The notes under the pieces were generated by a model that was not told the DNA's origin, ran no database searches, and saw only the letters and a program-made list of their open reading frames with translations. Shown here piece after piece: positions 6,184 through 63,120 of a DNA stretch of 64,000 bases. The stretch spans positions 5,458,501-5,522,500 of the forward strand of contig NC_135243.1 of assembly GCF_947623445.1 (NCBI RefSeq). Direction: 5' to 3'. The stretch is from Clavelina lepadiformis (Eukaryota; Chordata; Ascidiacea; Aplousobranchia; Clavelinidae). Numbering within the stretch: position 1 is the stretch's first letter; every line of letters begins with the position of its first letter. The position numbers and the translations under genes are program-made.

Positions 6184-6250
6184 GGTCCAGTACAAAGCTA
6201 CTTATAGGAGAAACAGTAGTCAAGGTGACTTATAATTAAAGGTTGTCTCC

Positions 6251-7768
6251 ATGGCTGACGAATGGACATACAGAGAAGAAGGAAATAACAACGTCGTGTT
6301 CACAAGCATCAACAATCGAAGCATACTTCGACTGCCCAAGGTCCCCAAGGTGAAAAAATCCAAGGAAGACCGTCATGTTTATGCTGGGCATGACGCCATC
6401 AATCAAGAGATTGAATTTTTGGAGAATGTTGTTTATAAGATACTTAGCGGACTACGACTAACTTACAGAGCGGAGCGAATGGCAATCACAAAAGACTTCA
6501 TTCGCAAGTTGTCCACTGATATGAACAAACGACGCTCGTTGCAAAACAATGGAATGGACTTAGACGACACCGTAACGTACGCGTTAAAAATGCCGAATTT
6601 TTGCAATGCTGTAGTGCCACACCCAGTAGTGCACCACTCTACTTACGGTACAGTCTTGCCTGCCGATCATCACGTAGCGGACAAACCAATAATTAGTATC
6701 GAATTACGGCCTAAGACATGTTATTTCCCTGTGTTCGACGAACCGCCTTGCGAGCAGCTTAAAGACAGGTGTTTCTTTTGCTTAGTGCAGATGTACAAGG
6801 AACTAAAGCACCCGGGAACGAAACACACCCGCTACTGTCCGTGCGATCTGTATTCAGGCAACCTAAGGAGAATGAAAGTAGCTCTACTGGAACTAATAGC
6901 TTGTCCACAACGATATCTGTCCGCACGCATCAACGACACGGTCGTCTACTCGCAAGGAATCTTAAATAAAAAAATCCCCTGCAATGCAAATGGTATGAGG
7001 CAGAAGCTAGCGACTGACATATTCGAAGAAGTTATTTCGCCAGTTTATGGTAATACAGACGGAAACGGTCTTGATGTATTTTTGGATGCAATTTGCAAGA
7101 GTTTATTATCCCCTATAGCAACGTCTGGGGGGGAAAGTTCCGTCGGTCACTGGCGTAAAAACAACAGCCAGAAAAGACGTTGCGTAGGCGCACACTACGA
7201 AGTTACGGATTCCACGTATAGAGATGACGATGTGGAAGAAATACAGAACAGCTCTGATACCAACATACTGAGCTTTCTCGACTCGATCAGTTCGATGAAG
7301 GAAATACCAGTTGCGCTTGTTGAATCGATGCACCAGAAAATTACTGACCACGCAATTCTGCATCCATGTAATCGTCAAAACGTGTCGCTCTCATCGCCCT
7401 ATAATACCAAGGAATGGTTACGAGCGACAGGTTTCGATTCTTTTTCAAACGGCTTTTGCTCATTTGACGGCGTAGGTATAGACCACGAAAAATTTGCTGA
7501 TATTCTACGCAAGTACATAGTTGCTCGTGGTTTTAACTGTTGTTCGATTATAATAACACTACAGAAGGCTAACTTAAGTTCCAGTTCTGACGAGCCGCTA
7601 GATGGCAGCACTATCCGTCTGACTGATAGTGTTGGCAACGTTTATCACTCAACTCTTTCGATTCTTGATCTTTATAAAGATCCGGCAAATCAAATTCAAA
7701 AGTACTGTAAACGTGAACGAGACGTGCTTTATTTTCTGAACAATCACTTTTCCAACTTGAAAACTTGA
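6251..7768 (+). CDS. IPPK: Inositol-pentakisphosphate 2-kinase (IPPK)
   Basis: Predicted to phosphorylate inositol pentakisphosphate at the 2-position to make InsP6. The 505-aa frame matches IPPK along its length. EWTYREEGN (residues 4-12) is the nucleotide-binding start, like EWGYHGEGN in human. SIELRPK (149-155) matches the EIKPK motif with Lys changed to Arg. RYCPCDLYSGNLRRM (194-208) matches the RYCPLDLYSGNKQRM block. A C-terminal CSIIITL and SILDLYKDP match the human CSIMIAL and SVLDLDLKP. Human IPPK is about 490 aa, so this is full length. The ATG sits in tctccATGG with a likely 5' UTR splice acceptor ending at 6184. The whole coding region is one exon, unlike all intron-rich neighbours, so it may be an old retrocopy. 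A poly(A) signal AATAAA lies at 7912-7917. Confidence 0.9.
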   Translation: MADEWTYREEGNNNVVFTSINNRSILRLPKVPKVKKSKEDRHVYAGHDAINQEIEFLENVVYKILSGLRLTYRAERMAITKDFIRKLSTDMNKRRSLQNNGMDLDDTVTYALKMPNFCNAVVPHPVVHHSTYGTVLPADHHVADKPIISIELRPKTCYFPVFDEPPCEQLKDRCFFCLVQMYKELKHPGTKHTRYCPCDLYSGNLRRMKVALLELIACPQRYLSARINDTVVYSQGILNKKIPCNANGMRQKLATDIFEEVISPVYGNTDGNGLDVFLDAICKSLLSPIATSGGESSVGHWRKNNSQKRRCVGAHYEVTDSTYRDDDVEEIQNSSDTNILSFLDSISSMKEIPVALVESMHQKITDHAILHPCNRQNVSLSSPYNTKEWLRATGFDSFSNGFCSFDGVGIDHEKFADILRKYIVARGFNCCSIIITLQKANLSSSSDEPLDGSTIRLTDSVGNVYHSTLSILDLYKDPANQIQKYCKRERDVLYFLNNHFSNLKT

Positions 7769-11058: not shown

Positions 11059-11135
11059 TGGATTTGTATTGTATTTGTGTTTTTATTTATCGGCTGAAGT
11101 TTGTATGTTTTGTATTTTCACAGATTATCTGAACC

Positions 11136-12494
11136 ATGGGTAAATTAAGAACGACATTAAAAAAATTGCAGCGATTTTTAGGGGTAACGCTTGGCATCGC
11201 GGCTGGCCTATGCATTGCCATCAGCGCCATGTCTTTGAAATTTTTGCACGAGCCAATAATTACGAAAACTTTAGTTATGGTAAACATTCAGATCTACCTT
11301 TTGTCGCTACCATTGATGACTTATCAGAAACCTCATGGATTTCTTGAAATCAACAGATCAACTGTCATGCTACTTGTCTTGAACGGTGTTTCAATTTATG
11401 CCAGCATGTTCTGCTTTTTCCAGGCAGTCAAATATGTGCCAATGGGAGAAGCCTTAGCGTTGGCTACTACATATCCACCAATCGCGACAATCCTGGCTTG
11501 CATTCTACTGAAAGGTAAAAATTGGGTTCAAGATAGATTCAACACAGTGCGATTAAACCATAGATATCCTATGTTTTATAGAATAGTGGAATAGTCATTG
11601 AGTAGAAATGTCTTGGATTTAATCGTCCGTGTTTTAAATAAACGGACCACTAAAAAATAACACTGCATAGCATAAGCTATAGTTCTACCTTAATTCTAAG
11701 ATCGTTTATTATCGTTCATGTTTAGCATGATTCGCACCTATATAAACAACTTTCGGAATAGGGTTTTCACCACTTCAAATATACTGTGTAGTCTACAGTT
11801 TATTTTTGATTTGATGCTTACTGCAATGAAATGTTGGTCTTCCTAAGAATACGTTTTGAAATTTTTCAGCCAGGTATATGTTTTTACAGAAACGTTCAAG
11901 ATACTGGATGGCATTTTGCTCGTTACCATAACGATTGGCGTCTTCCTAATTGCACAACCTGAATTTCTATTTGGTGGTGCAACTCAGAGTCAAAACAAAG
12001 TTTTAGGAGTTGCATTTGCTGTAGGTTCGTCTACCACTTGCGCTATTGGCATCTTGGTGACGCGCAAACTGAAAACCGACGTCGTTGTTGCGGAAAACCT
12101 GTTGTCTGTAGCGATTCCTGCTCTGATCGGGTCTTGTATTGAATTATCCTCAGTAGAAAATGGCTTTTTGATACCTTGCCTACGAGACGTTAAGTGGATG
12201 TTTTTGGGTGGAGTTTTCTTCCTTGCTGGCTATGGTTTGAGATATTTTGCCCTGCAAATAGAAAGAGTAGGACCGGTTTCTGTGGCTTACACTGGTCAAA
12301 TAGCCTTTGGATATGTATTTGATCTCTTCATTTTTCATGTACCTATTAATGTTATTTCCATTTGTGGCGGGTCATTGATATTTTTGTCATGCGTGGCAAC
12401 AACAGTTACCCAATGTGCTTTTGAAAATCGACAAAAATCGAATTATCATCATGAAAGCGAAAATAGAGAAGAGGAAAATTCAATTGTTTTATAA
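11136..12494 (+). CDS. SLC35G-like EamA-family membrane transporter
   Basis: A multi-pass membrane protein of the drug/metabolite transporter superfamily. Its substrate is unknown. Two coding exons, 11136-11514 and 11890-12494, join in phase to give 327 aa. The junction reads ILLK-ETFKILDG and aligns with FLGEKYSLWD of human SLC35G1. Hydrophobic helices are clear, for example LGIAAGLCIAISAMSL, TVMLLVLNGVSIYASMFCFF, ILLVTITIGVFLIAQP and VISICGGSLIFLSCVA. The block VKYVPMGEALALATTYPPIATILA is the EamA-type repeat 1 core, and ERVGPVSVAYTGQIAFGYVFDLF is the matching piece of repeat 2. The start ATG has a good context (ccATGG). The C-terminal tail is acidic and hydrophilic (about 25 aa, cytosolic by inference). 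Length is near the SLC35G norm, so it looks complete. Confidence 0.85.
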
Positions 12495-31811: not shown

Positions 31812-44589
<12,778 letters not shown>

Positions 44590-47833: not shown

Positions 47834-48078
47834 GTTTATAGTAACATGATGTAAATAAAATGTGTCACATTTTTCATGTCTCTTATACTTATGCACTACG
47901 ACATGAAGGTTTGGCTTATACAGTTTGTTTGAAAGCTGGTCAAATGCTCAGTTGTATTTGATTTTGGAAACTTTTTCATTACTGATGTATAGGTCTATGT
48001 AATACAGATGATATATAGGTTATACACATAATTTTAATGATTTCTGTTTACTCAAGGTTAGCTGTTTGCTCTAACAAA

Positions 48079-49272
48079 ATGGAAGCTGCCCTAGGAAGTG
48101 TGGGTGATTTTGATAACCCCTCAGCCAAATTCATTGCGATTATGGTCTTGCAAGAATTAAAAGCAATTCGAAAGGACATGAACCGAGAAATTAAACGATT
48201 AAGCTCAAGTATCGAGCAGTTGTTTTCTCATTTTGATGCTTCGTCTGCTGAATATTGTTCAGATTATGATTTAGTGCAAACTGAAGAAGATAACGTCACT
48301 AGCATTGTAGAAAATAGTGAATTACAGCTCCCTGGACATAACAAAACCACCAGTAACAATGATGATTTGGCTTCCTCCCTGCTTGAAGTGAAACGACCGT
48401 TGCAGGCTTTGCAAAATATACCAGAGAATCCAATAATATCAGCTGACAGCAACAATGGTAAAAATAATCTTCAGATCGATTGTGTTGAAATACAGATTAT
48501 TCAAAATGAAAATATGGATCCAGCATCTGACGAAGTGTCAAATTTCTTTGATTCTTGCGAAATTTATGAATCTGACCAGGAGCATTTATCTGATGAGCAA
48601 ATGGATGAGAGTAATGTTGAAGATGATGATGTAGCTGCAGAAGTTAAAGAGGAGGAGGAATACATATTGGAGGAGATTCCTCAAGATAGTTACTCTGTTA
48701 GAACATCAGAAAATAACTGCCGTCAACTTCGCTCTTTTTCTAAACTGAGATCTGAAAAACACAATGTTCAGTGTGATATCTGTGATAAGGTGTTTGACAA
48801 TCCAAACAATTTTAAATCTCATTATGCAAGACATGTTGGTCCATTTAAATGCAAAATCTGTTCTAAAGAGTTAAGCACAAAAGGCGGTTACAAAACTCAC
48901 TTACTAATTCATAAAAACATTCGACCTCATCAATGCAACCAATGTGATAAAGCATTTTTTGAAAGAGCTGCACTGAGATTTCATATGCGGGCAAATCACA
49001 CTGGCGAGCGTCCTTTTGCTTGCAAACTCTGCGGGAAGGCATTTGTCCGCAAAGGCAACCTAACTGGCCATATGGTTCTTCATTCTGGTGAAAGGCCATT
49101 TCGCTGTGAAGTCTGCGAAAAAACTTTTAATCGCAAAAGCAATTTGAAGTTGCACATGCAGGTACATATCCCTGATCGGGCTGAAGAATGTGGGCATTGT
49201 GACAGAAGTTACATTGACAAAGAAGCATTAAGAAAGCACCGACTGAAAGCGCATGGAATTAAAAGTCTTTAA
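48079..49272 (+). CDS. C2H2 zinc-finger protein, six fingers
   Basis: Probable nuclear DNA-binding protein, 397 aa from the ATG in aacaaaATGG at 48079 (an upstream in-frame ATG at 48037 would add 14 aa). Residues 15-55 (IMVLQELKAIRKDMNREIKRLSSSIEQLF) look like a coiled coil for self-association. Residues about 60-220 are acidic and low in structure. Six C2H2 fingers follow at about 232-393: CDICDKVF..H, CKICSKEL..H, CNQCDKAF..H, CKLCGKAF..H, CEVCEKTF..H, CGHCDRSY..H. Fingers 3-5 are joined by canonical TGERPF/SGERPF linkers. All zinc ligands are present. Generic C2H2 architecture prevents a firm orthologue call. The visible coding region is a single exon, and an upstream non-coding exon is likely (ctcaag acceptor at about 48055). 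AATAAA lies at 49537. Confidence 0.85.
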   Translation: MEAALGSVGDFDNPSAKFIAIMVLQELKAIRKDMNREIKRLSSSIEQLFSHFDASSAEYCSDYDLVQTEEDNVTSIVENSELQLPGHNKTTSNNDDLASSLLEVKRPLQALQNIPENPIISADSNNGKNNLQIDCVEIQIIQNENMDPASDEVSNFFDSCEIYESDQEHLSDEQMDESNVEDDDVAAEVKEEEEYILEEIPQDSYSVRTSENNCRQLRSFSKLRSEKHNVQCDICDKVFDNPNNFKSHYARHVGPFKCKICSKELSTKGGYKTHLLIHKNIRPHQCNQCDKAFFERAALRFHMRANHTGERPFACKLCGKAFVRKGNLTGHMVLHSGERPFRCEVCEKTFNRKSNLKLHMQVHIPDRAEECGHCDRSYIDKEALRKHRLKAHGIKSL

Positions 49273-52524: not shown

Positions 52525-54125
52525 ATGCTGCATATCAAAGTTGTATCAGATATCATGTGACCTTGGTGTTGGGTCGGTAAAAAGAATTTGGAGACCGCCA
52601 TGGAATCTTACAAAGATAAATATACATTTAAGGTTAACCTAAGTCTACCAGTAACAGGAATTCATAAATATTGACTTTTTAACTATTGGTGTCAAATAAT
52701 TCAAAACTTCCAAATAAATTTTTGATTATAGTACTATTAGTAGTACTGTATATTGTAATATTAGTCATCATTGTTTTGTATTTTTCTTTTTTAATGAAAT
52801 ACGTAATTGTCAATACATCATCGTCTTTTTCTCTGACTTTAGGTTACATGGGAACCATTTCTTTTACGACCCAACATGCCTCCAGAGGGTGCCCCAAAGG
52901 GTGACAACTATGGACCTAATTCACCTTCGTAAGATTTTTCTTCTACTTTTTATATATTTTCTGCACCAACATACTGTCGTTATGAATGCGATTATTATGT
53001 GAATGTTTATTTTCCAACGGAATTGTCTTGTAATCTTATTTCTAGATAAAGCAGTGAATTTTATAAAAATGTGCACATTGGTTTTGCAAACAAGCTTTTA
53101 AAAATTGATATGTGACATGTCCCAAAAGCTTTTAAATTTGTAAAATGAAGGTATTTTTCCCTTAAATTTTAAGATATTAACTTTTATTTCGTTTTACTAG
53201 AGCTCAACGATTAATTAACGTTGGACGTAGTGTTGGTGTGGAATTTGCATACAAAGCAAAGAGATTTCCAAACACTATTATTGGCCATTGTGCACTTGAG
53301 TATGCTCTACTACAGGATCCAACCGGACATAAACAGAATTTAGTAAGTTTTGTGGTGTTGTGCAACACAATTGAAAACTTAGTTAATAGTGATGAAGGCA
53401 TTTTTTATAATTAGCGGTAGCTATTTAATTATTATATTAGAACTATTTCTGACACAATTTTTTGCAATTTATTTCAATGTTTACACAATTCTAATTAAAG
53501 TAACATATGAGCTTTTTAAGCATCCATCTTATGTTCAGCTGCAGGAAGGATTGTTCAAGAGTTACTTCACAGACGGGGAATACCCTGATGCAGAAGTGGT
53601 TTCCACACTGGCTTCCACAGTTGGATTGAACAAGGATGATGTCAAAGCTTATGTGCAGGATGAATCCAATCAGAGCCAAGTCAGGGAGAAAGCGGGTCGA
53701 TGGAGTTTACAAGGAGTTTCAGGTAACCAACAGGCAACAAACTTTAGAGAATCGGTTTAAGCTAAAATGAGTTTTCTAGTGGAATTTTGTGCTAAGGTTA
53801 AAGAAATATGTATGAATTGCCTTATCATGACAGTGATTATATACTACACAGCGAGATTGCTTACAGGAACATAATTATCACTGTTCTCTCAAAACAAATC
53901 TATCTAGTAATGAAGTTGAAAAACTAAGATTTTAGTTTCACTGAACTTTTATATTGAATTTCATCAATTGGCATCATTTAATATGAATATTTGTTTTTCA
54001 CTTTAGGTGTTCCGTTCTTTATCGTTAATGATCAGAAAACATTTTCTGGAGCACAGGATCCTAGGAATTTCCTTCACATATTTGACAAAGTGCATGAAAA
54101 GTTCCCACTTTCCACCAAAGCCTAA
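52525..54125 (+). CDS. DsbA/FrnE-like thioredoxin-fold selenoprotein (UPWC motif)
   Basis: Predicted thiol/selenol oxidoreductase of the DsbA-like FrnE clade. Exons 52525-52632, 52843-52928, 53201-53342, 53539-53722 (acceptor could be 53545) and 54007-54125 join in phase to 212 aa. It starts MLHIKVVSDIM, then TGA (52558-52560), then PWCWVGKKNLETAMESY. Family members read SD-x-x-C-P-W-C here, so the TGA stands exactly at the first redox Cys and fits selenocysteine (U12-P-W-C15). Downstream family features are intact: VTWEPFLLRPNMPPEG, the helical insert with HCALEYALLQ and LFKSYFTDG, and GVPFFIVND with cis-Pro176, then SGAQ. No other stop occurs. A SECIS-like hairpin lies in the 3' UTR (54233-54311). 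A decayed gene is unlikely given the clean frame, good splice sites and the SECIS. No signal peptide, so probably cytosolic. Confidence 0.88.
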
Positions 54126-54232: not shown

Positions 54233-54311
54233 TTGTTATAGTAAAGACATATGATGTTCATAGAAGGAAATATCAAACTTTTGTGTTCTGAATTCAACTT
54301 TGCCATAATGG
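54233..54311 (+). promoter_or_regulatory. SECIS element, type I-like
   Basis: Predicted fold by hand: helix I pairs 54233-54246 with 54298-54311 (13 pairs, one A-C mismatch). A 5x5 internal loop follows. The non-Watson-Crick quartet is TGAT (54252-54255) opposite TGAA (54289-54292), giving the tandem G-A/A-G pairs, and an A precedes the 5' TGA as in the ATGA consensus. Helix II pairs 54256-54266 with 54278-54288 (two U-U mismatches at its base). The 11-nt apical loop has the unpaired AA at 54268-54269. It lies about 110 bases after the stop and before AATAAA, as expected for a eukaryotic selenocysteine insertion element. Confidence 0.87.
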
Positions 54312-54530: not shown

Positions 54531-57049
54531 ATCTTTTCATCCGCTCAAAGGCACTTGCTCTGCAACACAACTTACTCTCTCCACATACAATTTAATAATC
54601 CATTACATCCCCTGAAAAATTTAACTTACTAACTGTGTCTTTAAACGCTTGGATATATCCATATCTCAGTATGGCGGATTACGGGATCAGTCATCAGTGC
54701 TTCAATTACTTTCATTTTTTCGACAAGTGTTAATTGCTACAACACGCACACTCCAGTTGTAATTGTTCAGCCCATTCGTCAAGGGTGAATTGTTACAACA
54801 TCAACGGCAATGAATTTTTTGCTTGTTTGAAAACTTTGAATCCTCCAGTCGGAGACAACTAATTAGGGCCTTACCCAAGGAAAAACTGACATATTGAACT
54901 CTAATGGGGAAAATGTGCTGCATCCAAGTCTAGTTAATTGCAGCCCCAGAGAGGTTATGTAACTATATCATTTTAGACTACGTGTACATTTTGAAATGGA
55001 TCACTTGATACAGGTAGTCAGACGCTCCAATGTGGAACCCCAGCTTAACACAAGCAGTGCTTTTAAAAGGAGACTTCAAAAAGTACAATAATAAATTATG
55101 TAATCAAATACCGTTTCTAATAGTTTTGCAGGAATATTTAAAATAATTTTTATTTATACAGATAAAAGTCCCTTAATTCATTCAATTGTTTTAAAATCCA
55201 ACAAGTTAACCCACCATAAAGTTTACTCTGATAACAAAACGGATCATGCATCGTTTGCGTAGGGAGAAATTGAATCATATAACTCAAAGTGCCAACATGA
55301 CGTTATTACCAGCAACGAATGTGCCGTTATTTAACCACCGTCATTCTGGCAGAATCCTAGCAGAATCATAGCTTCCAAAATGACAGCAGGGTTTCCGTTT
55401 ATTTTTTTATAAACTATGTACAGTGGACTAAATAATTATTCTTAAGCGCTAATGGTAAACTGCCTAATGGTTTTAATGTGGTATGCCTAGTCGTGACTTG
55501 TCTGTTTCTAACATCGCATTTAAGTATTTTTGGTTACGGTATTTCGATGTCAGCAGTCAAACGTTATTATTAATATTAATGAGAAAATTCTTTGATTTAG
55601 CATTATGAATTGCATGGCCTAGGTAAAAGGTAAAATTGCTGAATGCTGATGGGCTAAAATGTTCTTCTGACATTTTAGGCCTATTAGGTTGATGCACTGC
55701 AGAAGTCTGGAAGTGAAGCTTCTTTGTAGACCATAGCCCATTAGCTATAGCTTAATAACAGGTTGCATGTAATTGAAAAAACAAAATCGCAATAGGTTGC
55801 ACTTGCACTGTCTCAATAATCAAGTCAGCAACTGTATGGATAACAGTCTACAAACCTAAGTAAAAGTGCATAGATGTAGTAATTTGACTGATTTCCAAAA
55901 TAAATATGCATGTAATTGTATTATATGTACTCAGTAAATGCATTTACCTGCCCAAGATGTTGAAATAGCCTACTTATCAAGTGTTTTTTGGCTCTGAATT
56001 CTTAACATGTTATATAGGCCTATTTAGTGTAACTAGTAAGCATTTGTCAAATTGCATATATGTTTTAGGGTTGACAAAATACTGAGTTTATGACAGAGAA
56101 ATGGGAAGTTTTGTTTAAGTACTTCTTGGTGTAAACATCCTTTTCTCTAGATAAGTTAAAATTGTTTGAAAGTTAATCAATACGGTAAGTATTGCAATTA
56201 CTGTTTTAAAAGTCAACTCAGCCCTTTAAAACATACAAGAAGAGGATTTATCATTTTAATGTGGTTAAGCTCCAATATGTCGGTATTGAAGGCATGTTCT
56301 ATTGTTGTGCAAGTCTCATATGTTTTGTGATTTCATTTGTGCTTTTACCATATTTAAGTTTTCTCACATTAATTATTATCACTGAAATTGAACATACCAA
56401 TATATCTATTTGTTTAAATCATAATTTGCTGTTGATGGATTTTCCAACCATGCCCCTGAGGCAGCCCTTTCATGGTCGTTTGGTTTTTTCATCAGGACAT
56501 TCCCCAATAGGCATATTATACCTCGATAATAGGTAATGCTCGTTGAACGAAACCAATGGTTACACTAAGAAGTAGTATTTATAGTGAAGCATAAATACTA
56601 AACAGGCACAACAATTATGATACTGTGCACTTTAAATACAAACAGACAAAGTGAACATAAAAGAATGTGGAGCCAACCAGATACATCATCATTAGAATAA
56701 CATCTAAGAATGCACAAACATGGGACTGGCAGAGGCTACACATGCCATGGAAAAATCTAGTGAACTGACGGCATCGCTGTGCTACATGAAGAAGTACATA
56801 TAAATTTCTTTATATACAAAGACGTCCCAGTGCTCGTATGCACCTATACTATCGTACATTTTGTGAACTGTATGTGATTGTGAACAGCTCTTAATTTCAT
56901 CAACAGACGTTTTGATTGGGAAATTCAACTTCTTGGAAGCATTATTGTAGTCCAAGTGATAGAGGTGCAGAGTGAGGTAAATTATGGCTTCTATTTCTAA
57001 CACTCATATAAGGTAAACGTTACAGCTACACTGATACTTTTCAAAATAC
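54531..57049. other. Long intergenic stretch
   Basis: No gene seen. Contains one arm (about 55331-55375) of a widely spaced inverted repeat pair whose other arm is near 62650-62697. The ORF at 56261-56536 has no features. Confidence 0.4.
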
Positions 57050-58005: not shown

Positions 58006-58299
58006 ACGATTTCTGTTGTTTCTGTTACACTTTTTTTTGCCCTGTATCTGTTGCGTTTCTCCCTTGCGGCCGATTGCGCGTTTCCGTGGTTAATTAAGCA
58101 CATGTATCTTTTTATCGATGTGTGTCTGACAAGTAGTTGCACTGACAGTTTTGTATTGGAGCTCCTGAAATGAGCTATGTGAACGAAAACTTGACCTAAC
58201 TGCTTTTAAAATAAAACATGTGCCTGTAATTCTAAGAGTGAGAACAACAAAACGTAACACTGGCGAGCACGGCACGACCTCTTAGAGGCACAGAAGATT

Positions 58300-61200
58300 T
58301 TATCAAGTTTTACTGAAGTTGAATTTTTTTTACTCTCCGCCTCGTTACCAGCGTGGCAATAGTTTTTCGTCTTTTCTCAAAGAATTCGAATCCTTCTGCG
58401 ACAGCGTTAAAGCATCGGATGCGGTGAAGAAACATGCATCTCTACAAAGCTTGCCGGAAGGCATGAGATTCTCAATGACCGATGGTCGTAAAAAGCTCTA
58501 CGAGCTTAGTTATGACGAACTCATTCAAAAAGCAAAAGACACAGTTTCAGGACTATCTTCACAAAAGCATGCCATGCAACAACCCGTTCAGCGAACTCAA
58601 GGTTTTGACGAATCTGTAAGAAACTTTTTTGAATCTATAGCTCAATTGGGAAAAATGGCTTATACAAACGACGAACAGCATGAAATGCGCAGCAGTGTGC
58701 TGTACAACCTACTTGTTCGAGGACTGAGAGATCGTCAACAAGCCTCTCAAATCTTACGCGATAACTTTAAAAATGCACAACCGGATTTTTACGCCACAGC
58801 AAAGAACATTATTGAAAACGCAGAACGGACGCATCATGAACCACGTATAATGACGTCAGAAGTAGCAGCGGTTACAGGAGATCACCAGGACGTATCCCAA
58901 TTAAAAAGAACTGTCGAAAAACTTCAGGACGAAATTTTCCAACTGCGAAAAGAAATGAAGACAGCAAGAAAACCTCGGGAAGAGAGAAAAAGACTTCAGT
59001 GTTTTAACTGTGGGGAATATGGTCACATTGCTCGACGTTGTCACAGGCAACGTGCAAGAAACTTTCGACGTGCTTCTGACATACATGGAACTCACAGCAA
59101 TCCACCATGGGAAATCTACCAGGTTCAAACTATGGATCAGGACTTGCATAGAGAACAAGTTTTCCAACGATGAGTTGTCGGCACTGCACGATGAGTTATG
59201 TTTGGACAAATTGGAACTGTCAGAGGTTGAACGCCAAAAGCTGTTTCCGTAATCTCTTCCTATCGTGATGTATTTTCGCTGCACCCGTACGATATTGGAC
59301 AAACAGAACTGGTCGAACACTCAATCGAAACTGGAGACTCGCTCCCTATACGCCAGCACCCAAGACGCTTGCCTGAACCCCAAAAGCAAAAGAAGCATCT
59401 GGATGGTCAACCGAAAACACTATTAAGGCGCAGCAAAAAGATCCAGTGTTGAAAAGACTGTTTCAGTGGATGAGCCAGGAACGCCGACCATCATTCAAAA
59501 AAAAATCGAGAATTCTCTGGAAGAAGTTTATGCTCAGTTGCTGGTGCCCTCAACAATGAAGAATGATGTGTTGAAGTCTGTTCACGATTTAATTCACGGA
59601 GGTGGACATATGGGCGTTAAAAGGACATTTGCCAGGTTAAAGGAGCGTTTTTTCTGGCCATTTTGCCACAAAGATGTCGAAACATACTGCAAAGAGTGTT
59701 GCTTGCGCGATTTAAGAAAAGTACCAAGGCGGATTGTTCTTGCCCCATTAGTTCCATCAGAGGAAAATCCACCTATGCAGAAAGTTGAAATCGTCGTATT
59801 ATGGGAATATGGTGTATGATGGTGGCTTTCGGGATGGCCTAAGCCAAGTCTTACTGTTTGACTCCGAGATAATTGTCTTTGACTCCGTTGCGTTTACTGT
59901 CTCTATATTGCTTCTTAAATCAACACCAACTTCATAAAGTTTAATTGTTATATTGTCCGAATAAGTTGTATCGAATTAGCAATATTTACACCATGCTTCC
60001 AATTCCCAATATCTTAGTAATTACTTCAATTCACAGGAAATAACTCAGAAGAAGTGAATGTCTAAAAGGGGTTTCTCAGATACTTTCCAAGAGAGCGATT
60101 TTAAACCCAACATTTCTTTTTATACTCAAAGTATTGACCAATCAGCGCTTGCCAATTGCCGTACAGTCAAACGTGTCTACTGTCAAGTATTCCAATTTAA
60201 GCCTTTTTCTCACAAAGAATTCAAATCGATTTACATCGTGTACAGAAAACCACTTGACACACTTAACTACGTCACATGTCAATTGGAACTACTTTTTGAC
60301 TACAAATTGCTAGAAACAATGCATTTGCTACGTACAAACTATTACACGGTAAAATACAATGCTACTTGAAACATTTTAGACTCCTTTGTTTGAATAACTG
60401 CTTAACCATGTAATACATCTGTTTAAACATTAAAATTCTATTCCAGCTGGAGAACACACATAACCCGCTTTTAATTGCCAATTATATACAGTGTTCACGG
60501 TCGCCACAGTATTAAGCGGTCTACCCGAAACAGGAAACGACAACCGTGATATTCTTGTCGTATGTGACACCTACACAAAATACATGCAGTGTTGGCCAAT
60601 GAAATTCCAAAATGCCAAAGATACTGCTTATTTGCTTTACCACCGTTGGGTGACGATACATTGCGTCCCAGAAACAATTCACTCCGACCAGGGCCGGAAT
60701 TTTGAAAGTATTCTTTTTCAAGAGCTCTCACGGTTAATGGGCTGCAAAAAGACAAGAACCAGCCCGTATCACGCAAAGGGAAACGGTGCTGTGGAAAGAA
60801 ACAATCAGACCACAATTGCGATTTAAAAAAATTATGTTGAGGTTGACCCAACTTCTTGGGATGACGCGCTCTTCTTGGTTAGCGCTACTTACAATTCAAG
60901 TGTTCATGAGGAAACTGGAGTTTCTCCTCATTACTTGCTCACTGGAAATAATCTTAGGTTGCCTGCAGATCTTGTTAGTAAGGCACCAATTTTTACTCCA
61001 AAGTGTGAAGACATCCTTCATCTTCAAGATCGAATGAAATTGGTTCACCAAACAGTTCAATCAAGGTTGGAACAACGTAGGTTTCAAATGAAGAAGCGTT
61101 ACGACAGGCCCCTATGTTGTTAAAAAAGTTATTCCTCCTGCAAACTATTTGATAGAAAATCGAAAAGAAGGTGTGAGCGAGAATGAAGGGCAAAATTCTT

Positions 61201-61440: not shown

Positions 61441-61643
61441 ATAGACGGATCTTTTCACTTCACTCACGCACGTATATGTAGTTATTAATAGCAAATGTTT
61501 GTGTTTTTGTGTTCGTGTTTTTAAACGTGTTTTTATACTGAGATTATAAATTTTTATATAGTTATATTCTTTTGTTTATACTAAGATTTTACATTTTAAG
61601 TGTGTCACTACTTGTGGTTTGAGTGTCTATTTAAGTGATCGTT

Positions 61644-62351
61644 CGTTTTTGTAAATTTCGGAACTTTCCGGCCAGGGGGGATCGATTTCAAGGTGACCAT
61701 CGTGAAGAGGAGGAAATCTTCTTTAAGAATCTGCAATAAAAAATTCACACCTCCTCCGGAAACACTCAGCAGAATTGACGTGAAACATTTAATAAATACG
61801 GCATTTTTTACGTTTTCGGGTCTTATCGCATTTCTTAGTACCTGTCGCGTTTTTGTAAATTTCGGAACTTTCCGGCCAGGGGGGATCGATTTCAAGGTAA
61901 CCATCGTGAAGAGGAGGAAATCTTCTTTAAGAATCTGCAATAAAAAATTCACACCTCCTCCGGAAACACTCAGCAGAATTGACGTGAAACATTTAATAAA
62001 TACGGCATTTTTTACGTTTTCGGGTCTTATCGCATTTCTTAGTACCTGTCGCGTTTTTGTAAATTATGGAACTTTCCGGCCAGGGGGGATCGATTTCAAG
62101 GTGACCATCGTGAAGAGGAGGAAATCTTCTTTAAGAATCTGCAATAAAAAATTCACACCTCCTCCGGAAACACTCAGCAGAATTGACGTGAAACATTTAA
62201 TAAATACGGCATTTTTTACGTTTTCGGGTCTTATCGCATTTCTTAGTACCTGTCGCGTTTTTGTAAATTTCGGAATTTTCCGGCCAGGGGGGATCGATTT
62301 CAAGGTGACCATCGTGAAGAGGAGGAAATCTTCTTTAAGAATCTGCAATAA
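61644..62351 (+). repeat. Tandem array, 204-bp unit, about 3.5 copies
   Basis: Units start at 61644, 61848, 62052 and 62256 (each CGTTTTTGTAAATT), an exact 204-bp period. The copies differ at only a few positions. Because 204 is a multiple of three, long ORFs stay open on both strands (236 codons plus, over 100 codons minus). These are products of the repeat rather than evidence of a gene. It follows the retroelement directly and may derive from its 3' part. Confidence 0.92.
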
Positions 62352-62359
62352 GGCCTTTT

Positions 62360-63120
62360 TCCTTTTGTTCATTATTACGTCATGTAGTGAAATTGTTTTT
62401 TAATTGTGACAGAGGACTACAACATTCATATCTCTTGAAACTCGTTTTGTGTGTATACTCTCTTGTTTTTTTCCTTCTTGTTGTTTTGTGTTACCATCAT
62501 TTCTAATTTTAAAATATGTGTCTAAAATTTTTGTTTTTTTTGACTTGGAGGATTGGAAGCGTTAAACTTTGTCTGCTTTGTTTTAAAATGCTGTTTCATT
62601 CTGTTTTTGAAAATTTTGGAGTCGGAAACACTGTTGTTCGTTTGGATAGTATGATTCTGCTAGGATTCTGCCAGAATGACAGTGGTGTTATTTAGACCAA
62701 ATTAGGAAAGACATTTGCGGCTGAGACAACTGTGTACATTACCAAAATTGGGTTTTAAGCGCAGCCTACTGGTGACAAAACACCGCTAGTATGTAATTGA
62801 AGATTTGTTATGAATCCTGTAGTACACAAAGTGATACGTCGACGGACACAAGTTTAATCTCGCACTCAAACCTAAATCTCTGAACCTATACAGCCTGCAT
62901 GACAGGTGCTGTACTGCTAGTCGGTTAGCTTCTGGCCTTAATTGTCGGTGTAACGAGATCGTTAAGTAGCTAAAGTCCGAAAATACTGCACTGCAATCAA
63001 AGAACGCTTAACTCTAGTTTTATAGACCTGTTATAGAAGAAGGTATTCTTGAGTGTCTCCATGGGATGTTAATGGTTTGTCGATTGTTACACTGAGTTCT
63101 CTTGGTTTTATCACCTTACA
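62360..63120. other. Intergenic DNA upstream of the F-box gene
   Basis: No exon seen. Carries the second arm (about 62650-62697) of the inverted pair with 55331-55375. A splice acceptor, ttacag, ends at 63120 and marks the start of the F-box exon. Confidence 0.45.

Follow-up and report, generated by a model that had tools for sequence, protein, structure and literature searches.

Genes and other features of the locus

The stretch of Clavelina lepadiformis DNA analysed here (64,000 nucleotides, hereafter referred to as the window) carries a sea squirt gene of five exons, the product of which contains a DSBA domain (Table 1). Pieces of other genes, LTR retrotransposon-like sequences and a tandem array are found elsewhere in the window. 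The retrotransposon-like pieces lie in separate ORFs and include a CCHC zinc knuckle, an integrase zinc-binding domain and an integrase core, the last just below the Pfam cut-off, while the tandem array comprises 3.5 copies of a 204-base unit that are 98% alike and is contained in a stop-to-stop frame of 254 amino acids (61639-62403).

Table 1. Positions of the DSBA-domain gene, its associated elements and the other features of the window
Feature	Position	Strand	Remarks
Inositol-pentakisphosphate 2-kinase-like gene piece	6236-7768		
EamA-like transporter gene piece	11133-12494		Second piece below the Pfam cut-off
Protein kinase gene piece	39269-39658		
C2H2 zinc-finger protein gene piece	48019-49272		
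Exon 1	52525-52632	+	Met1 to Lys36; holds the putative Sec codon and UPWC; based on in-frame translation, GT donor, phase 0
TGA codon, residue 12	52558-52560	+	Putative Sec in place of the first Cys of CPWC
Met26 ATG	52600-52602	+	Context GCCATGG; downstream of the TGA; first residue of public record P0001
Exon 2	52843-52928	+	AG..GT, frame maintained; matches P0001
Exon 3	53201-53342	+	AG..GT, frame maintained; matches P0001
Exon 4	53539-53722	+	AG..GT, frame maintained; matches P0001 except one residue (R in the gene model, Q in P0001)
Exon 5	54007-54125	+	Carries the GVPFF loop and the TAA stop
Candidate SECIS	54236-54308	+	111-183 bases past the stop codon; ATGA at 54251
AATAAA	54331-54336	+	Possible polyadenylation signal; first AATAAA after the stop, downstream of the candidate SECIS
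LTR retrotransposon-like pieces	58286-60826		
Tandem array	61644-62351		

The four introns of the DSBA-domain gene are all of the GT..AG type, with phases 0, 2, 0 and 1, and the spliced exons form an ORF of 639 bases that encodes 212 residues and ends in TAA. The frame is interrupted by a single internal stop, the TGA at residue 12, in agreement with the original prediction of a five-exon frame that is otherwise intact and soundly spliced. The start codon (Met1) has an A at -3 and is preceded by stops in the same frame, and the frame between Met1 and the TGA is open. In the 209.06-Mb assembly, exon 1 matches no place but its own. Contamination was considered as a source of the gene and rejected on account of the introns, the location on a 25-Mb contig with neighbouring animal-like genes and the best match, which is to Clavelina itself. 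That best match, the public C. lepadiformis protein P0001, is 187 amino acids long and begins past the TGA, as had been anticipated for an automatic annotation of such a gene; from residue 26 onwards it differs from the gene model at one residue and agrees with it at all four splice junctions.

Domain, fold and active site

The 212-residue product matches the Pfam DSBA family (PF01323) with an E-value of 2e-29 over residues 4-197. Among solved structures, the FrnE chains 5cp1 and 5cnw, which we take to be those of Deinococcus radiodurans, are nearest in sequence (E about 8e-21, residues 3-202), and the search of NCBIfam gave a weak and partial match (23.3 bits against a cut-off of 190). In the alignment to 5cp1 and 5cnw the TGA falls under the first Cys of CPWC, exactly where the original prediction had placed it, and the second Cys of the CxxC motif is retained, so that residues 12-15 would read UPWC. 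The GVPFF segment, presumably the cis-Pro loop, is likewise present as predicted, with G174, V175 and P176 invariant in an alignment of 14 sequences.

The Clavelina protein differs from the bacterial FrnE of 5cp1 and 5cnw, which has Cys at the position of the putative Sec and is 260 residues in length. Bacterial FrnE also has a C-terminal extension with a CX4C motif, which the Clavelina protein lacks, as it ends at residue 212 and has no Cys past residue 95. By inspection, there is no space for a signal peptide ahead of the FrnE match, which starts at residue 3, although an upstream exon is possible; the enzyme is therefore more probably cytosolic than secretory, and a role of the periplasmic type should not be read into the name DsbA.

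Pfam DSBA is also matched by three GST-kappa-like genes of the same genome, clustered at G000:C4:9321251-9325519 and each matched in a single ORF; one of them (L010) is closest to GSTK1 and the other two were assigned by resemblance. Their translations carry SPYS at the position of CPWC, and hence they are not selenoproteins at that site. A GST kappa paralogue was rejected as an identification of the gene in the window, since no GSTK chain occurs among its six matches to solved structures (E up to 0.001).

By homology, the product would be a thiol oxidoreductase of the thioredoxin-like DSBA fold in which Sec12 acts as the attacking nucleophile and Cys15 as the resolving residue, beside the cis-Pro loop, and the two would form a selenenylsulfide during thiol-disulfide exchange.

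The putative Sec site in homologues and the public record

Homologues of the protein were compared at the position of the TGA, using the 120 listed of the 295 that were found. The site is occupied by Cys in 35 of these 120 and by Trp in one, and is absent from the remaining 84, which start downstream of it. The first residue of the 84 is Met in 73, Val in nine and Leu in two, which is what a gene caller would yield after a stop and is suggestive, though not proof, of a TGA in those genes. Tunicates, a lancelet, hemichordates, an annelid, a bivalve and bryozoans are among the taxa named for them. Among the best 14 database matches, 13 lack the site because they begin beyond it, and the remaining one has Trp there. 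For the two Ciona species, the records P0003 and P0004 (61-62% identical) share with P0001 a first residue at the position of Met26.

Cys occupies the site in the three gastropod records that were inspected (Aplysia, Batillaria and Littorina). Both positions of the CxxC motif are Cys in all 80 bacterial loci examined, the best 80 of 522, and a scan of viral contigs returned 51 pattern matches, none of which is a relative. P0002, a full-length relative that is 56-57% identical, reads SDIMWPWCW where the Clavelina frame would read SDIMUPWCW. Its Trp is perhaps most simply explained as a TGA read under a code in which TGA specifies Trp; since P0002 preserves the stretch that precedes the site, translation probably runs through it.

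These comparisons bear on two ways in which the TGA could be a genuine stop. The first is that it is an ordinary stop or a codon of the 5' UTR and that the protein begins at Met26, with 187 residues and no CxxC motif. This is how the gene appears in P0001, and the Met26 codon stands in the context GCCATGG. However, the residues preceding Met26, including SDIM-PWCW, are conserved with the full-length relatives, a start at Met26 would cost the DSBA fold its first strand and both catalytic residues, and the frame is open from the TGA back to a Met1 with A at -3. Moreover, the same mis-annotation has been corrected in print for Ciona, according to the available part of PMC2874816. We therefore regard this explanation as very improbable.

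The second is that this is a degenerating gene copy or a pseudogene, in which a nonsense mutation arose by chance in the active site; nothing speaks for it beyond the stop codon itself. It was rejected because the remainder of the frame is intact, as are the splice sites and the invariant residues. Also against it are the single copy of exon 1 in the genome, the database matches noted above, in which the site is either skipped or Trp, and the Sec at the equivalent site of Ciona and amphioxus in the accessible text of PMC2874816; its probability is close to negligible.

Selenocysteine, which very probably is what this TGA encodes, thus remains by far the best reading of the codon. A broader proposal is that the enzyme usually carries Sec among its nearest database relatives, and that in Clavelina Met26 may also permit a short product that is independent of selenium and lacks the active site; the strong start context of Met26 means that such a product could also arise. 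We consider this proposal tentative and somewhat doubtful. If the Sec form were indeed usual, the enzyme would be one of the most widely mis-annotated selenoproteins.

Selenocysteine machinery and other putative selenoproteins in the genome

The genome was searched for tRNA-Sec, EFsec, SBP2 and SepSecS. A single tRNA-Sec scores above the family cut-off (75.3 bits against 47) and has the anticodon TCA; the other 37 matches to the model are below the cut-off, and both of the two that were inspected sit in tRNA-Ser clusters. The EFsec-specific domain PF21208 is present, as is an exon of SBP2, the only solved-structure match of which is SECIS Binding Protein 2 (1.6e-19), and SepSecS has two matches. 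All four components being present, a lack of selenocysteine machinery, named in the original prediction as an observation that would speak against Sec, is excluded. The two SepSecS matches (G000:C6:2413286-2419154) each cover almost the whole profile in one ORF of 480 amino acids and start about 4.7 kb apart, an apparent tandem duplicate of this enzyme of Sec synthesis.

Seven other genes of the genome have TGA at the Sec site: five glutathione peroxidases (GPx), SelT and SelW, the positions being assigned with motifs that we assume to mark the Sec site in these families. Ten matches to the GPx family were found, with TGA in five (L015, L019, L021, L023 and L024) and Cys in L016, while the remaining four span a later part of the domain. 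Two of the GPx genes are arranged in tandem (G000:C7:16649668-16654031, L019-L022), both of them with a TGA at the Sec site and followed by a SECIS-like element; of these two elements, only that of L020 is reported by Rfam.

In Clavelina, therefore, the ribosome would have tRNA-Sec, EFsec and SBP2 at its disposal to read the UGA at residue 12 as Sec. The PF01323 match, the Cys-containing homologues and this machinery together support the original prediction of a DsbA/FrnE-like animal selenoprotein with a U-P-W-C active site.

The candidate SECIS element

Insertion of Sec would probably be directed by the SECIS-like element located in the 3' region of the gene (Table 1). Its lower helix has 10 of 11 positions paired and is followed by an internal loop and an ATGA/TGA core; above the core there are a G-C pair, two U-U mismatches and eight continuous pairs, capped by an apical loop of 11 bases with unpaired AA. 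A descriptor composed after the candidate had been seen gives it a score of 21, the best of the window, where the next is 16, and no score in 60 simulated 64-kb strands exceeds 20. When relaxed, the descriptor recovered the L022 GPx element with a score of 15 and missed the elements of L015 and L020 that Rfam finds.

The folding energies are less distinctive. In a constrained-energy scan the candidate has -14.5 kcal/mol, and 108 elements that are equal or better occur in 100 simulated 64-kb strands, which amounts to a chance of roughly 0.5% within 300 bases; in the window itself, two places on the plus strand and three on the minus strand outscore it. The SECIS-constrained energy of the candidate is close to that of the L022 GPx element (-14.4 kcal/mol) and much weaker than those of the L020 GPx (-26.2) and L035 Sep15 (-24.5) elements, and the constrained folding gave no result for L015 and SelT. 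The z-score of the candidate fold is -1.13, with 31 of 200 shuffled sequences folding at least as well.

The Rfam search of the gene region and the 3' region returned no SECIS match. As a control, eight loci around selenoprotein-family gene pieces of the Clavelina genome were searched with the same models; SECIS_1 was reported in three (L015, L020 and L035), all below the gathering score, and not in L017, L018, L022, L033 or L034. Elements are present in L022 and L033 nonetheless, as judged by matches to the covariance model R1, so that the silence of Rfam on the candidate is weak evidence.

Two covariance models were built from SECIS elements of this genome: R1 from four sequences, including that of L022, and R2 from six rows, two of which represent one and the same element, as L020 and L021 overlap. 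Three of six non-training loci were matched by R1, although L019 and L021 overlap training loci and contain the same elements, and the only new match is the SelT element in L033 (22.5 bits); L017, L018 and L034 gave no match with R1 and one weak, partial match with R2 (L034, 10.9 bits). Applied to the window, neither model matched the candidate. A five-sequence alignment that included the candidate placed its core out of register and was discarded.

It could accordingly be proposed that Sec is inserted with the help of a SECIS other than this candidate, which none of the covariance models (Rfam, R1, R2) matches, and the best window match of R1 and R2, at 56081-56138 (16.2 and 15.2 bits), points the same way. 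The latter, however, lies about 2 kb past the stop codon and beyond two AATAAA sequences, and its alignment contains a 3'-side gap and helix positions that do not pair; it was rejected as a SECIS and is probably due to chance. The candidate, with the top descriptor score, precedes the first AATAAA after the stop. A different SECIS thus appears unlikely, and the candidate is provisionally regarded as the likely, though not established, SECIS of the gene.

Relationship to known DsbA selenoproteins

The original prediction did not count this family among the standard animal selenoproteins, but the literature refutes the idea that it is new to animals (PMC2874816, PMC3473315, PMC3965025). Sec-containing DsbA with SECIS elements was described in 2010 in Ciona intestinalis, C. 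savignyi and Branchiostoma floridae, whereas no DsbA was found in vertebrates, as far as the available text of PMC2874816 states. An excerpt of a study of 2012 lists it for four of six marine invertebrates, namely Nv (two; read as Nematostella), Lottia, Capitella and Branchiostoma floridae, and Cys forms for Amphimedon and Trichoplax (PMC3473315). The FrnE (DsbA) family is included in SelenoDB 2.0 (PMC3965025, in part), and DsbA is named among the algal selenoprotein families also reported in animals in the accessible portion of PMC7539508. No paper on the selenoproteins of Clavelina was found in the open-licence collection searched, nor one treating DsbA, selenoprotein and tunicate together.

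Like the gene described here, the Ciona and Branchiostoma genes in the available text of PMC2874816 belong to the DSBA family and have Sec where the CxxC motif would begin, a residue that is putative in Clavelina. They also carry a SECIS downstream, the counterpart of which in Clavelina would be the candidate element. The same source gives form II for the Ciona SECIS, whereas the Clavelina candidate resembles form I, with a simple apical loop. In both ascidians the part of exon 1 with the TGA was omitted from the annotation; in Ciona it had been called UTR (PMC2874816, in part). Clavelina differs from the Ciona hosts in its ascidian genus, and from the SelenoDB FrnE (DsbA) entries and the Sec-DsbAs of Nv, Lottia, Capitella and amphioxus, which are of the same family, the difference is of species only, as judged from the accessible parts of PMC3473315 and PMC3965025.

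Hence, we conclude with high confidence that the C. lepadiformis gene is orthologous to DsbA, an animal selenoprotein that is already known (as FrnE in SelenoDB), with the UGA at residue 12 read as Sec. It opens no new kind of system. What is new is one more species with a Sec-DsbA, together with a gene model and a SECIS candidate, which adds a further ascidian genus to the Sec-DsbA/FrnE record and shows that the active site is still missing from the public protein record. This is useful for annotation and for mapping the exchange of Sec and Cys in chordates.
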